From Vannielia litorea (GTDB lineage Bacteria > Pseudomonadota > Alphaproteobacteria > Rhodobacterales > Rhodobacteraceae), in assembly GCF_018424695.1 (NCBI RefSeq), contig NZ_QTNQ01000012.1, positions 19,829 through 83,828 of the forward strand: a DNA stretch of 64,000 bases, in the 5' to 3' direction. The translations under genes and the position numbers were made by a program. The notes beneath the pieces are model-generated. The model had not been told where the DNA came from and ran no database searches. It saw only the letters and a program-made list of their open reading frames with translations. Shown here one piece after another: positions 8,319 to 52,409 of the stretch (within the stretch, counting starts at the first letter, position 1; each line of letters begins with the position of its first letter).

Positions 8319-9055
8319 GCACGCTTCTCGAGGTCAACGGCATCTCCGTCACCTTCGACGGCTACAAGGCCATCCGAAACCTCAGCTTCAACATCGGCGA
8401 GGCCGAGTTGCGCGCCATCATCGGCCCCAACGGTGCGGGCAAGACGACCTTCATGGATATCGTCACCGGCAAGACCAAGCCCGACGAGGGAAAGGTTATC
8501 TGGGGCGAGATGAGCCGCAACCTGGTGGGCATGAACGAGGCCAGAATCGCCCAGGCGGGCATCGGCCGCAAGTTCCAGAAGCCGACCGTTTTCGAGGATC
8601 AATCGGTCCGGGAAAACCTCACCATGGCGCTGCAAAACAAGCGCGGCTGGTCCTCCGTCCTGTTCTGGAAGCCCTCCAAGGCCGACCAGAACCGCGTGGT
8701 CGAACTCGCCGCCGAGATCGGCCTTGCGGACGAGCTGGAGCGCACCTCCGGCGAGCTCTCCCACGGCCAAAAGCAATGGCTCGAAATCGGCATGCTGCTG
8801 GCGCAGGAGCCCCGCCTCCTGCTGGTCGACGAACCGGCGGCGGGGATGACGCTGGCCGAACGCGAGCACACCACCGACATCCTCAAGGAAGCGGCCAAAA
8901 CCCGCGCCGTGGTGGTGGTGGAGCACGATATGGAGTTTGTCCGCCGGCTCGAATGCAAGGTGACGGTGCTGCACGAAGGCTCGGTGCTGGCCGAAGGTTC
9001 GCTCGACCACGTCACCTCCAACCCCGAAGTCATCGAGGTGTATCTTGGCCGCTGA
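8315..9055 (+). CDS. urtD: Urea ABC transporter ATP-binding protein UrtD
   Basis: 246 residues. It has Walker A GPNGAGKT (residues 37-44), an ABC signature-like LSHGQKQWLEIGMLL and Walker B RLLLVDEPAAGMT. The signature is LSHGQ rather than LSGGQ, which is usual for UrtD/LivG. It couples ATP hydrolysis to urea import through UrtBC. It starts inside the urtC stop and overlaps the urtE start. Confidence 0.96.
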   Translation: MSTLLEVNGISVTFDGYKAIRNLSFNIGEAELRAIIGPNGAGKTTFMDIVTGKTKPDEGKVIWGEMSRNLVGMNEARIAQAGIGRKFQKPTVFEDQSVRENLTMALQNKRGWSSVLFWKPSKADQNRVVELAAEIGLADELERTSGELSHGQKQWLEIGMLLAQEPRLLLVDEPAAGMTLAEREHTTDILKEAAKTRAVVVVEHDMEFVRRLECKVTVLHEGSVLAEGSLDHVTSNPEVIEVYLGR

Positions 9056-48705: not shown

Positions 48706-49299
48706 TCATGGCGTGCTGAGAAGGAGGTATTCCCCACTGCCCCTGCGCACCAAGTCGAAATTGGTTTCTTGTTCTTCTTCAACACCGTAGCCGGGGATCT
48801 TCGAGCGATCCATGGCGAGGTTGAGATTTTTCTTGATCTGGGCCGAATTGCCACTGTCGAGCGCGAAGGCGATCTTGAACACCCTTGCGGCCTCTCCGTA
48901 GTTCCCCTTTTCCATCAGGATCACGCCTAAGTTGTTCCAGGCAGGGGGAAATTTTTCGTCCTTCTTCACCGCGCGACGCAGCAGATCCTCGGCCTGCCCG
49001 AGACGGCCGAGCTTGAGATTTGCACTGCCGAGTGCGCTCAATACATCAACAGTCAACCCCTGTTCAGCGCCCGCGCGATAGTAGGCGGAAAGCGCCAGCT
49101 CATACTCGCCGGCGGACATGAGGCGATGACCGACGATCAATCCGTCCGGATCTTCGTAGCCACGGCTCGCGGGGGCCTTAGTGCCTTGATTCAACCCGGA
49201 AAGCTTGTCGGACCCGCAAGCCGCCAGCGCCAGCAGGAGAAGGGCCGCGAGGGCCTTGGGGAGATGTGCAATGTGTGACAGGTGACTGCTCGCCTGCAT
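48706..49299 (-). CDS. tadD: TadD-like TPR lipoprotein
   Basis: 197 residues from an ATG at 49299; a start seven codons upstream is also possible, and the frame opens to 49485. The lipobox LLLALAAC follows a hydrophobic signal. The TPR portion includes SAYYRAGAEQGLTVDVLSAL, GSANLKLGRLGQAEDLLRRA and PAWNNLGVILMEKGNYGEAA. It is placed upstream of the other TPR lipoprotein, 31 bases apart. Ribosome-binding sequence is weak for both starts, so the start is uncertain. The role as secretin pilot is inferred from TadD. Confidence 0.85.
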   Translation of the reverse strand: MQASSHLSHIAHLPKALAALLLLALAACGSDKLSGLNQGTKAPASRGYEDPDGLIVGHRLMSAGEYELALSAYYRAGAEQGLTVDVLSALGSANLKLGRLGQAEDLLRRAVKKDEKFPPAWNNLGVILMEKGNYGEAARVFKIAFALDSGNSAQIKKNLNLAMDRSKIPGYGVEEEQETNFDLVRRGSGEYLLLSTP

Positions 49300-49486: not shown

Positions 49487-49633
49487 TGTCGGATGACATA
49501 GTCGGATGGTTAATGGGATGGGGCGGTGGTGTACGTTCAATTCTACTGAAAATCGCAAAGCTTGAGTTGAACTGATCTGGTAACCTTCTATGGTCTCGCT
49601 TAGATATGGGCAGGACACGATGATGCTCAGCAA

Positions 49634-50446
49634 ATGAACAACAGTCAGACAGCTACTGCGAACTATGAGTCGCCTCCGCTTGATGAAGTGGTCCTCGGCG
49701 TTCAATTTGAAGCGATACCCGACTTTACCTCGGCGGAGATTGGTGCTGTCAGGAGCCTCTTCTCGGGGGAGTTCCCTCTAGTTCAAGAACAGCCCCCCTT
49801 GACGCCACAGTTTGAAGTATTCGGTCGAGATCCCGGCGGAGCTGTTCTCCCTCGCATTAGCCTAGAGCGGGCCCCTCTTCGAAGTAGAATGTGGTTTCTG
49901 TCTAACGAGGGTAACCACTTGGTTCAGTTTCAAGAGGATAGGTTCTTATTGAATTGGCGGCGCGGTACCAATGGTGCAGAGTATCCGAGATTTTCCGGTA
50001 CTTCAGCAGTGTTTTTAAAGAACCTCAGCCTATTGGATGAATACGTATCTCAGACCAGGGGGCAGAAGCTCAAGTATAATCAGGCAGAAGTTTCTTATAT
50101 CAATATAATAGATATGGAGAACCTCGCAGAAGCTGGCGATTGGCTGAGGTTCTTATCTTTTGAGAATCAAGATATAGAAACAGTTGCGGCCAGCTTTTCT
50201 GAGGTAATTCGTGATGAAACCAAGAGTGCACCGTTCGCGCGGCTCCACGTCGAATTATCTACGGTGCTCCGGCGAGATACTCGGAAAAGGAGCTTAAGAC
50301 TAGGGTTGACTGTTCGCGGGCGCCCAACTGAGATTGGTCAGGATGGTGTGGGCGCATTCGTAAAGCGCGCTAGGGATAGGATCGTAAAACGATTCGGGGA
50401 GCTAACCACTCAGAAGGCCTCCATTGCTTGGAGAAAGATAGAATGA
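49634..50446 (+). CDS. TIGR04255-family protein, first gene of accessory cassette
   Basis: 270 residues. It begins MNNSQTATANYESPPLDEVV, followed by LGVQFEAIPDFTSAEIGAV, then RMWFLSNEGNHLVQFQEDRF, LLNWRRGTNGAEYPRF and later EVSYINIID. This order (PPxxEVVLxVQF, WFxxxGxxLVQxQxDRFxxNWR, YPR, NxxxVxYxN) is the pattern of the sporadically distributed TIGR04255 family, whose function is undetermined. The DNA is AT-richer than the flanks (about 42% GC by hand count over 50041-50160), and the gene lies on the strand opposite the Tad genes. The stop overlaps the next ATG (ATGA). Confidence 0.85.
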   Translation: MNNSQTATANYESPPLDEVVLGVQFEAIPDFTSAEIGAVRSLFSGEFPLVQEQPPLTPQFEVFGRDPGGAVLPRISLERAPLRSRMWFLSNEGNHLVQFQEDRFLLNWRRGTNGAEYPRFSGTSAVFLKNLSLLDEYVSQTRGQKLKYNQAEVSYINIIDMENLAEAGDWLRFLSFENQDIETVAASFSEVIRDETKSAPFARLHVELSTVLRRDTRKRSLRLGLTVRGRPTEIGQDGVGAFVKRARDRIVKRFGELTTQKASIAWRKIE

Positions 50447-50943
50447 CTAATGTTAACAGCGATGCGACGGCCTTCCAGCGGCGGAGTATATTTACCGTTA
50501 TTGACGGTGGCGGAGCAGGGCAGACAAACGCGTTTCAGAGCCTCGACGTTGTCGGTAACTGTTCTAGTTGGGTGCGGGCCTTGGAAAGTCGCTTTGAAGA
50601 AGTTACCGCGCTATCGTCGGGTTGGGATGGATATGCTGGTAAGCCAGTTTCCTTTGGATGTGCAACCTTTGCAGCAAACCTGCTTGAGGCAATTTGCATA
50701 GACTCCCTGCCGGCTCCCCAACTCGTTCCAGGTTCAGATGGTACGTTGCAATTGGAGTGGCACCTAAACGGCTTTGATCTAGAGTTGGATGTTCTGGGGC
50801 CGAACGAAGTGGTAGCATATCGCTTCAACGAGCGGCTTGAGATTGAAGAGACAGAAGAGTTGCAAAATGACTTCGCTCTAGTCGCTGATTGGGTCGATGA
50901 TTTGCAACGGCATCCTCAAGTGGGTCAAGCGTTTCGTGCTTAA
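50443..50943 (+). CDS. Accessory-cassette protein with WDGY motif
   Basis: 166 residues; the ATG overlaps the TIGR04255 stop (ATGA), so translation is coupled. The centre reads ALSSGWDGYAGKPVSFGCAT, then APQLVPGSDGTLQLEWHLNG. I associate the pattern GWDGY-x-x-KPVS...P-x-x-VP-x-x-DG-x-x-x-LEW with small unknown proteins in genomic islands, from memory and not checked. No catalytic residues are evident and no membrane span or signal. It looks like a small soluble partner of the TIGR04255 protein. Confidence 0.75.
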   Translation: MTNVNSDATAFQRRSIFTVIDGGGAGQTNAFQSLDVVGNCSSWVRALESRFEEVTALSSGWDGYAGKPVSFGCATFAANLLEAICIDSLPAPQLVPGSDGTLQLEWHLNGFDLELDVLGPNEVVAYRFNERLEIEETEELQNDFALVADWVDDLQRHPQVGQAFRA

Positions 50944-50951
50944 TTACAAAA

Positions 50952-51365
50952 ATGCCGCCTTACGATGATCCAAATATCTCCGACGAGGATTTGATCGTGC
51001 GCAGGGTGAACCCAGAGCAGCATCTAGTTTACGATGAGAACTTGGGGCGCCAAAGAGTTTCTTCAAAACTGTTTGCCGCTTCTTCGGGTCCGGAAGGCGG
51101 TATGTCTGTTGACATCCCAGCGTTGATGGTCGCCGACGGTGTGGTAGCCGAAGAGTTCGTTAAGACGCCCCCTTTTCTTGGTGCCGTTAGTTTCACTGCG
51201 GGCTGTATTCGTGAGGCTCACTTAATTGTAGGTTATCATCCTATCCCAGATAACCCATACCACGGGGAAGTGTGGCGCGCACCGGATGGAGGAAGATTCA
51301 CACGGGCGCAAAAGAAGCATTTGTCCGAGAACTATGAATGGTTCGTGAAGGTTTCTGAGGATTAA
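50952..51365 (+). CDS. Third accessory-cassette protein, unknown
   Basis: 137 residues, starting MPPYDDPNISDEDLIVRRVN nine bases after the second stop. Conserved-looking elements are a phrase DLIVRRVNPEQHLVYDENLG, then RVSSKLFAASSGPEGGMSVD, and later HPIPDNPYHGEVWRAPDGG. The second has a serine-rich, glycine-flanked SSGPEGGMSVD stretch. It has no signal peptide or span. No known fold is recognised. It ends 45 bases before the convergent tadC stop. Confidence 0.75.
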   Translation: MPPYDDPNISDEDLIVRRVNPEQHLVYDENLGRQRVSSKLFAASSGPEGGMSVDIPALMVADGVVAEEFVKTPPFLGAVSFTAGCIREAHLIVGYHPIPDNPYHGEVWRAPDGGRFTRAQKKHLSENYEWFVKVSED

Positions 51366-51410
51366 GCGAGTTTTTTTGTTTGCCATTCTTCCTATGGTCA
51401 ATCACCCCCT

Positions 51411-52409
51411 TCAAAAGAACGTCGCGTTGCTCAGCGTCTCGTAGATCCGATACACCGACGGGCCAATGAGGATGATCATCAGCGGGGGGACGGTGAACAT
51501 CATGGTGCCGAGCGTCAGCTTGGTGGGCAGGACGTTGGCCTTTTCTTCGGCGCGCATCACCCGCTTGTCGCGCATCTCCTCGGAGAAGACGCGGAGCGCG
51601 TCGGCGATCGAGGTGCCGAAGCTGGCGGATTGGATCATCACCGTCACGAAGGAGGCGATGTCTGGCACCCCGCAGCGCTCTGCCATGTCTTTCAGCACGT
51701 TGGTCTTGTCTTTACCGGCCTTCATCTCGTGGGCGACGATGGCGTATTCTTCGGCCAGCGCGGGGTAGCCCTGCTCGATCTCCTTGGAGACGCGGATGAT
51801 GGCCTGGTCCATCGACTGGCCGGCCTCGACGCAGACCAGCATCATATCCAGCGAGTCCGGAAAGCCGTTGGTGATTTCTTCCTGGCGCTTCTTCAGGCGG
51901 CTGTTCACCCAGTAGCGCGGCAGGTAGTAGCCGGCGAAGCCGGGCAGCAGCACCATCAGCAGGATCTGCTGCATCGAGAGGTCGCCGTTGGCCGAGCTGA
52001 TGATGGCCGCCAGCAGGCCGACGAGCAGCATGCCGATGCCGAGGGCGAACTGGATGAAGTGATACATCCGCACCGCGTTCTTGCCGCGGTAGCCGGCCTG
52101 CATCATCCGCAGCTTGGCGGCGCCCATCTCTTCCTCGCCCTGGGGTTCGAGGAAGGTGGCGAACTTGTCGAGTTTCTCGGCGTTCTTGTCCTTGGTGCGC
52201 AGCCTGGCGCCCTTGCCATCGACCTCGGTCCGGGCCGCGCGGGTGCCGCCGGTGCCCTTGAGCTTGTCCATCGGGTCGGCCTGCCGCTTGAGGAAGGAGG
52301 GCAGGGTGAGCAGCACGAGCACCAGCCCGAGCGCGCCGATGGCGTAGAGGGGGCCGAGCTCGCCGAAGGTGGCGACGAGCCATTCGTTGGCGTTTTGGAG
52401 GAGTTCCAT
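51411..52409 (-). CDS. tadC: Tad inner-membrane platform protein TadC
   Basis: 332 residues of GspF type. An N-terminal span (LYAIGALGLVLVLLTLPSFL) is followed by the T2SF domain (NGFPDSLDMMLVCVEAGQSM, ALRVFSEEMRDKRVMRAEEK) and spans near the C-terminus. With TadB it forms the platform on which CpaF drives pilus assembly. It is the first leftward gene after the accessory cassette, transcribed from tadB with a 10-base gap. Confidence 0.94.
   Translation of the reverse strand: MELLQNANEWLVATFGELGPLYAIGALGLVLVLLTLPSFLKRQADPMDKLKGTGGTRAARTEVDGKGARLRTKDKNAEKLDKFATFLEPQGEEEMGAAKLRMMQAGYRGKNAVRMYHFIQFALGIGMLLVGLLAAIISSANGDLSMQQILLMVLLPGFAGYYLPRYWVNSRLKKRQEEITNGFPDSLDMMLVCVEAGQSMDQAIIRVSKEIEQGYPALAEEYAIVAHEMKAGKDKTNVLKDMAERCGVPDIASFVTVMIQSASFGTSIADALRVFSEEMRDKRVMRAEEKANVLPTKLTLGTMMFTVPPLMIILIGPSVYRIYETLSNATFF

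Follow-up and report, generated by a model that had tools for sequence, protein, structure and literature searches.

Locus and base composition

Three adjacent plus-strand genes, here named orfA, orfB, and orfC (together, the trio), interrupt the Tad pilus locus of Vannielia litorea (contig NZ_QTNQ01000012.1 of assembly GCF_018424695.1, positions 19,829 to 83,828 of the forward strand; this whole 64,000-nucleotide stretch is the window, to which all unlabeled coordinates refer). Here, we report that these genes recur as a unit in other genomes, and we tentatively read them as an anti-phage module.

The first gene, orfA (49634..50446, 270 amino acids), encodes a TIGR04255 family protein and is the proposed sensor; orfB (50443..50943, 166 amino acids counted from the ATG) encodes a GWDGY/EWH protein, the proposed partner of orfC (antitoxin or adaptor); and orfC (50952..51365, 137 amino acids) encodes a small protein with a predicted ADP-ribosyltransferase (ART)-like fold, the proposed effector. 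Both flanking genes lie on the minus strand, with a TPR lipoprotein gene (48706..49299) on one side and tadC (51411..52409) on the orfC side, where the two genes converge and the orfC 3' end stands 45 bases from that of tadC. A sequence-only reading of the window had placed three rightward genes of 270, 166, and 137 residues between these leftward neighbors, and the coordinates bear it out; its ATGA overlap between orfA and orfB is likewise present, whereas the gap between orfB and orfC measures 8 bases, not the nine claimed. The motifs that it quoted from orfB and orfC are present and are conserved across the respective families.

Base composition sets the trio apart. Its GC content is 50.5%, against a mean of 64.4% (standard deviation, 3.3) for 623 segments of the same length from the window, of which only two fall lower, the lowest (start 49701) overlapping the trio itself; the trio region is the AT-richest stretch of the window. 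The 42% GC counted by hand over 50041-50160 in the sequence-only reading was correct (0.417 computed). Codon use was judged by GC content at third positions (GC3) alone, with five window genes as the reference, and is strongly unlike that of the Tad genes (trio genes, 0.48 to 0.53; tadA, tadB, and tadC, 0.87 to 0.93; tadD, 0.88; TPR lipoprotein gene, 0.71). These values support a trio foreign to its locus.

Recurrence of the trio

An orfB alignment was searched against one genome each of 84,980 species, which gave 31 loci; 148 orfB homologues were found. Genes A, B, and C stood in this order on one strand at 26 of the 31 loci (counting L005, whose A is split over two frames, and L026, whose A runs off the contig). 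The other five comprise two with B and C (L019 and L022), one with B and C behind an unrelated-looking gene (L030), one with B alone (L020), and a Spirochaetota locus with A and B followed by a different third gene (L031). Among 289 genomes drawn from the class, four carried orfB (the window's own counted), all four with the full trio; orfC had six matches in the same set, of which two were weak and had neither A nor B alongside. Three contigs of a viral collection hold the trio and one further contig holds C with a B remnant, and a Mycobacterium paragordonae plasmid carries the three genes in the same order directly after mobF (A, 143 bits; B, 44 bits; C, 35 bits). The full trio is therefore found in Pseudomonadota and Actinomycetota, with partial forms in Spirochaetota (L031) and a Chloroheliaceae genome (L022).

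Protein distance matrices over 30 loci were correlated for every pair (r = 0.90 for A and B, 0.84 for A and C, and 0.86 for B and C), values reached in none of 2,000 permutations; two pairs of loci are alike in DNA (L007/L009 and L024/L025, 87 to 89%). The exact 4-base overlap of A and B recurs in 20 of the 29 plus-strand loci listed, with start codons set by the analyst. The trio is a single conserved unit of co-evolving genes, patchily distributed over at least two phyla. The coordinated module suggested from gene spacing thus holds, co-occurrence included; the remark on small proteins near TIGR04255 genes understated the linkage, since the TIGR04255 gene is the first of three that co-evolve.

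Two of these loci have peculiarities of their own. In L005 (9076-9881), orfA is broken into a pair of overlapping frames, each of which matches a part of the protein; this is either a frameshift of the metagenome assembly or a natural split. The lone orfB-type gene of L020 (9504-11050), without A or C matches, lies near a gene that by eye resembles a PIN-domain toxin.

The tadC junction

The junction between tadC and the TPR lipoprotein gene was compared in six other genomes of the genus (G001 to G006). Two of them (G005 and G006) have an empty junction, and the other four carry different genes there; the trio was seen here in none of these relatives, whereas its presence here in all relatives would have refuted the sequence-only reading. 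Relative to the empty sites, the window carries an insert of about 1,878 bp (49530..51407, no strand assigned; GC content, 49.9%). Homology to G006 stops 3 bp beyond the tadC stop codon and restarts, after about 1.88 kb, at a 23-bp match that defines the far edge, becoming solid from about 49476. In five of the seven genus genomes, V. litorea included, a cargo starts right after the tadC 3' end; measured against the empty sites, all five begin within about 30 bases of the tadC stop codon and mostly within 10.

Outside the genus, no match to A, B, or C was found in the 15 best tadC loci of other genera of the family (L040 to L054), where tadC and the lipoprotein gene are at most about 440 bases apart. 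Because the trio is absent from these loci, and because the junction within the genus is empty or occupied by other cargo, it is not part of the standard Tad locus.

The alternative cargoes are varied. G004 carries a 459-amino-acid reverse transcriptase (RVT_1, E = 2.4e-13; PADLOC RT_UG17, E = 1.2e-32; DRT type), and G001 carries a RES toxin (E = 1.1e-27) with an Xre/MbcA/ParS-type partner (E = 3.6e-11) and a formate/nitrite transporter. G002 holds a HATPase protein (663 amino acids; L064:2129-4120) and G003 an ORC-CDC6-like P-loop ATPase (555 amino acids; L065:2043-3710), both with weak and partial PADLOC matches. Such variable sites are commonplace; the weight lies in two of the four alternative cargoes being of defense or toxin-antitoxin type. 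The stretch behind tadC offers an easily read location in which to seek further systems in the genus.

Some of these cargoes merit separate mention. The G002 HATPase and G003 P-loop ATPase genes are candidate uncharacterized defense genes. In G001 (L063:5366-7896), the RES-Xre pair and the formate/nitrite transporter are stacked and split by a 220-bp duplicate (96% identity) that copies the stretch spanning the tadC 3' end. In G004, an exact 131-nucleotide duplication (L066:8109-8239 and 8461-8591) lies upstream of the DRT-like reverse transcriptase and could be a repeated template or a non-coding RNA of that enzyme.

Direct repeats and mobility

Several trio copies elsewhere are bounded by direct repeats. 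In L003, L005, L009, and L010, a tRNA-Thr gene lies directly upstream and 48 to 60 bases of its 3' part are repeated downstream (95 to 100% identical), some 80 to 115 bases past orfC. L027 has a 95-bp repeat (88%) overlapping a tRNA-Ser gene, L015 a 29-bp repeat, and L087 a 137-bp repeat (98.5%) from the end of a neighboring gene. Repeats were counted within 500 bp on each side (E = 1e-3) at 30 loci, with L031 included and L026 omitted for its short flank. The count excluded L007, where upstream stands a tRNA-Thr and downstream what by eye looks like the 3' half of a different tRNA-Thr, and L023, whose weaker repeat (48 bp, 79%) lies on one side at a distance of about 2 kb.

Of the 30 loci, 7 had such repeats; among 248 control positions taken from these loci, 2 did (Fisher P = 2.7e-6). 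The stretch from repeat to repeat spans about 2.05 to 2.4 kb and the trio takes about 1.75 kb of it, which leaves too little space for an integrase gene. We infer that the cassette may be mobilized in trans, by an integrase whose gene lies outside it. It resembles tRNA-integrated genomic islands and cis-mobilizable elements in the tRNA 3' end repeats that flank several copies, and differs in its size of about 2 kb, in its three recognized genes, and in leaving no room for an integrase; the window copy, moreover, has no repeats. A 2-kb, repeat-bounded, integrase-less form could let a complete module pass, as minimal cargo, from one tRNA or gene 3' end to another.

The same compact stretches between repeats, and their excess over the control positions, would also suit a trio whose own products help to insert it, as a tiny integrative element, at gene 3' ends, with defense incidental. 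We regard this as very improbable: 23 of the 30 loci, the window's included, show no such repeats within 500 bp, the G001 cargo has a similar end duplication at the tadC site without A, B, or C, and no recombinase is among the listed fold neighbors of orfA or orfC, although such lists exclude nothing.

Another account is an addiction module that stabilizes its mobile element, with orfC as toxin and orfB (with orfA) as antitoxin, phage protection not being the selected role. The company that the trio keeps (mobF on a plasmid, viral-collection contigs, and tRNA repeats) fits this account, as does the RES-Xre pair at the same junction in the sister genome G001. We nevertheless judge it unlikely, as three genes are present where two suffice, no DNA-binding regulator is recognized in A, B, or C, and no element gene accompanies the trio in the 1.88-kb insert of the window.

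One trio copy has an unusual setting: in L087 (5486-7981), it sits inside what appears by eye to be a phage tail gene cluster, between the 137-bp copies of its neighbor's 3' end.

Predicted proteins

The product of orfA matches the TIGR04255 model over positions 2 to 247 of 252 (61.8 bits, E = 8.6e-17), above the curated cutoff of 30, and is a clear member of this NCBIfam "sporad" subfamily, as the sequence-only reading had recognized. The family carries no assigned function, and no paper in the full-text collection searched mentions TIGR04255. The predicted structure is a two-lobed alpha/beta fold with two similar lobes. The trio is not the only setting of the family: a Crinalium plasmid (NC_019754.1; L106:4001-5831) has a TIGR04255 gene (125 bits) coupled to two downstream genes, overlapping the first by 4 bases, and both match neither orfB nor orfC, so TIGR04255 is also used outside the trio. 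Named for its sporadic distribution, the family now sits in a conserved module with a testable effector, which makes its function an experimental question.

The orfC product is predicted from its model to have an ART-like fold with a conserved R-S-R-H set; R17, S52, R87, P97, and H104 are invariant among 38 sequences with identity down to 24%. It has no Pfam match up to E = 1. If it is an ART, the immune NAD+ enzymes would gain a clade of very short members whose active site is unusual. Its best structural neighbors are Tpt1/KptA RNA 2'-phosphotransferases, with which it aligns only over their C-terminal half and shares no detectable sequence similarity. These neighbors suggest another function, in which orfC would act on RNA 2'-phosphates or other RNA ends and orfA or orfB would bind RNA, in repair after anticodon nuclease attack; we consider such an RNA-end or RNA-modifying system quite improbable.

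The orfB product matches positions 247 to 356 of 375 in the PADLOC model PDC-M32A (E = 6.5e-10). No match was obtained at E = 10 for orfA against PDC-M32A or for orfC against PDC-M32B, which 2 of 14 scanned orfC relatives do match (L028, E = 2.5e-4; P0154, E = 1.3e-3). In one paper, PDC-M32 appears as a PADLOC prediction in a Sinorhizobium prophage and is termed a hypothetical system (PMC12429752). With the PDC-M32A model covered only in part and PDC-M32B unmatched, the trio falls outside PDC-M32, a two-gene (A plus B) system from which it also differs in having three genes with TIGR04255 first.

Proposed function

We tentatively favor, at somewhat less than even confidence, a reading of the trio as a conserved foreign unit at a variable tadC site that works as an anti-phage module with orfC as its ART-fold effector. 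The roles are proposed by analogy with CmdTAC and with ART and RES enzymes. In CmdTAC (PMC11618068), infection acts on a three-protein complex and frees an ART, which modifies mRNA; the trio would share the three-protein organization, an ART-type effector, and two further proteins that restrain the effector and sense infection. The CmdTAC sensor, CmdC, is SecB-like; orfA instead belongs to TIGR04255, and its listed fold neighbors do not include SecB. RES enzymes, too, are NAD+-degrading toxins of the ART superfamily encoded in small operons, such as the RES-Xre pair at the tadC site of G001; the trio differs in having no Xre antitoxin. A further report (PMC9503650) describes RES enzymes as producing ADP-ribose-1''-phosphate from NAD+ and ART-family enzymes as recurring on both sides of phage conflicts.

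By this analogy, orfA would be the sensor that catches an infection signal, upon which orfC would be released from orfB, a partner that restrains or targets it; orfC would then use NAD+ to modify an essential target or would drain the NAD+ pool, and the infection would abort. The pairing of orfB with orfC is suggested because the two remain together at loci without orfA (L019, L022, and L030), and the sensor role of orfA because TIGR04255 occurs with other partners. Were this anti-phage reading true, it would give the TIGR04255 family its first function.

The defense context draws on the PADLOC similarities of orfB (PDC-M32A) and of the two orfC relatives (PDC-M32B), on the cargo at the tadC junction, and on genes next to trio or A-B loci. 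L008 has subunits for type I restriction and specificity beside it, L031 a type I restriction gene together with a fusion of methylase and specificity parts, L032 a type IIG enzyme, and L088 a GajB-like helicase that itself adjoins a gene that by eye is integrase-like. Ten genes were picked by eye among the neighbors listed and six matched, an illustration rather than a statistic. The earlier guess of a defense, toxin-antitoxin, or effector system gains from the hotspot cargo, the restriction neighbors, and the ART-like orfC model; its functional part remains a prediction.

Several results weigh against the anti-phage reading. Classical ARTs use R-S-E or H-Y-E catalytic sets; no glutamate is invariant among the 38 orfC-family sequences, so orfC is not a classical enzyme of either type. 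The best Z score of its model is 6.8, and scores under 8 carry the program's caution that a match may reflect just a widespread arrangement; Foldseek with this model gave nothing significant (best E = 0.69), no sequence relative was found in the PDB, and hhalign against nine RES proteins returned a probability of 0.1 (E = 0.5). For orfA, the fold neighbors differ between programs and the fold gives no basis for a sensor role. The restriction and helicase neighbors come from hand-picked genes without a background rate, and neither orfA nor orfB had a match in a collection of 50,697 phage records (orfC was not searched there).

A fuller version of the reading joins two claims, that an undescribed ART immune module (two-lobed TIGR04255 sensor, GWDGY protein, and glutamate-less minimal ART) aborts infection and that it is also among the smallest defense elements with site-specific insertion, traveling in trans as a 2-kb cassette that lacks an integrase between the 3' ends of tRNA-Thr and protein genes; taken whole, it is doubtful.

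Three contigs of the viral collection carry orfB-type GWDGY/WDTYG domains (L083:5533-6396, L084:5995-6198, and L085:5971-6339; E = 3e-9 to 3e-8). The stretches retrieved around them gave no match to A or C, and these domains might be antidotes to the module.
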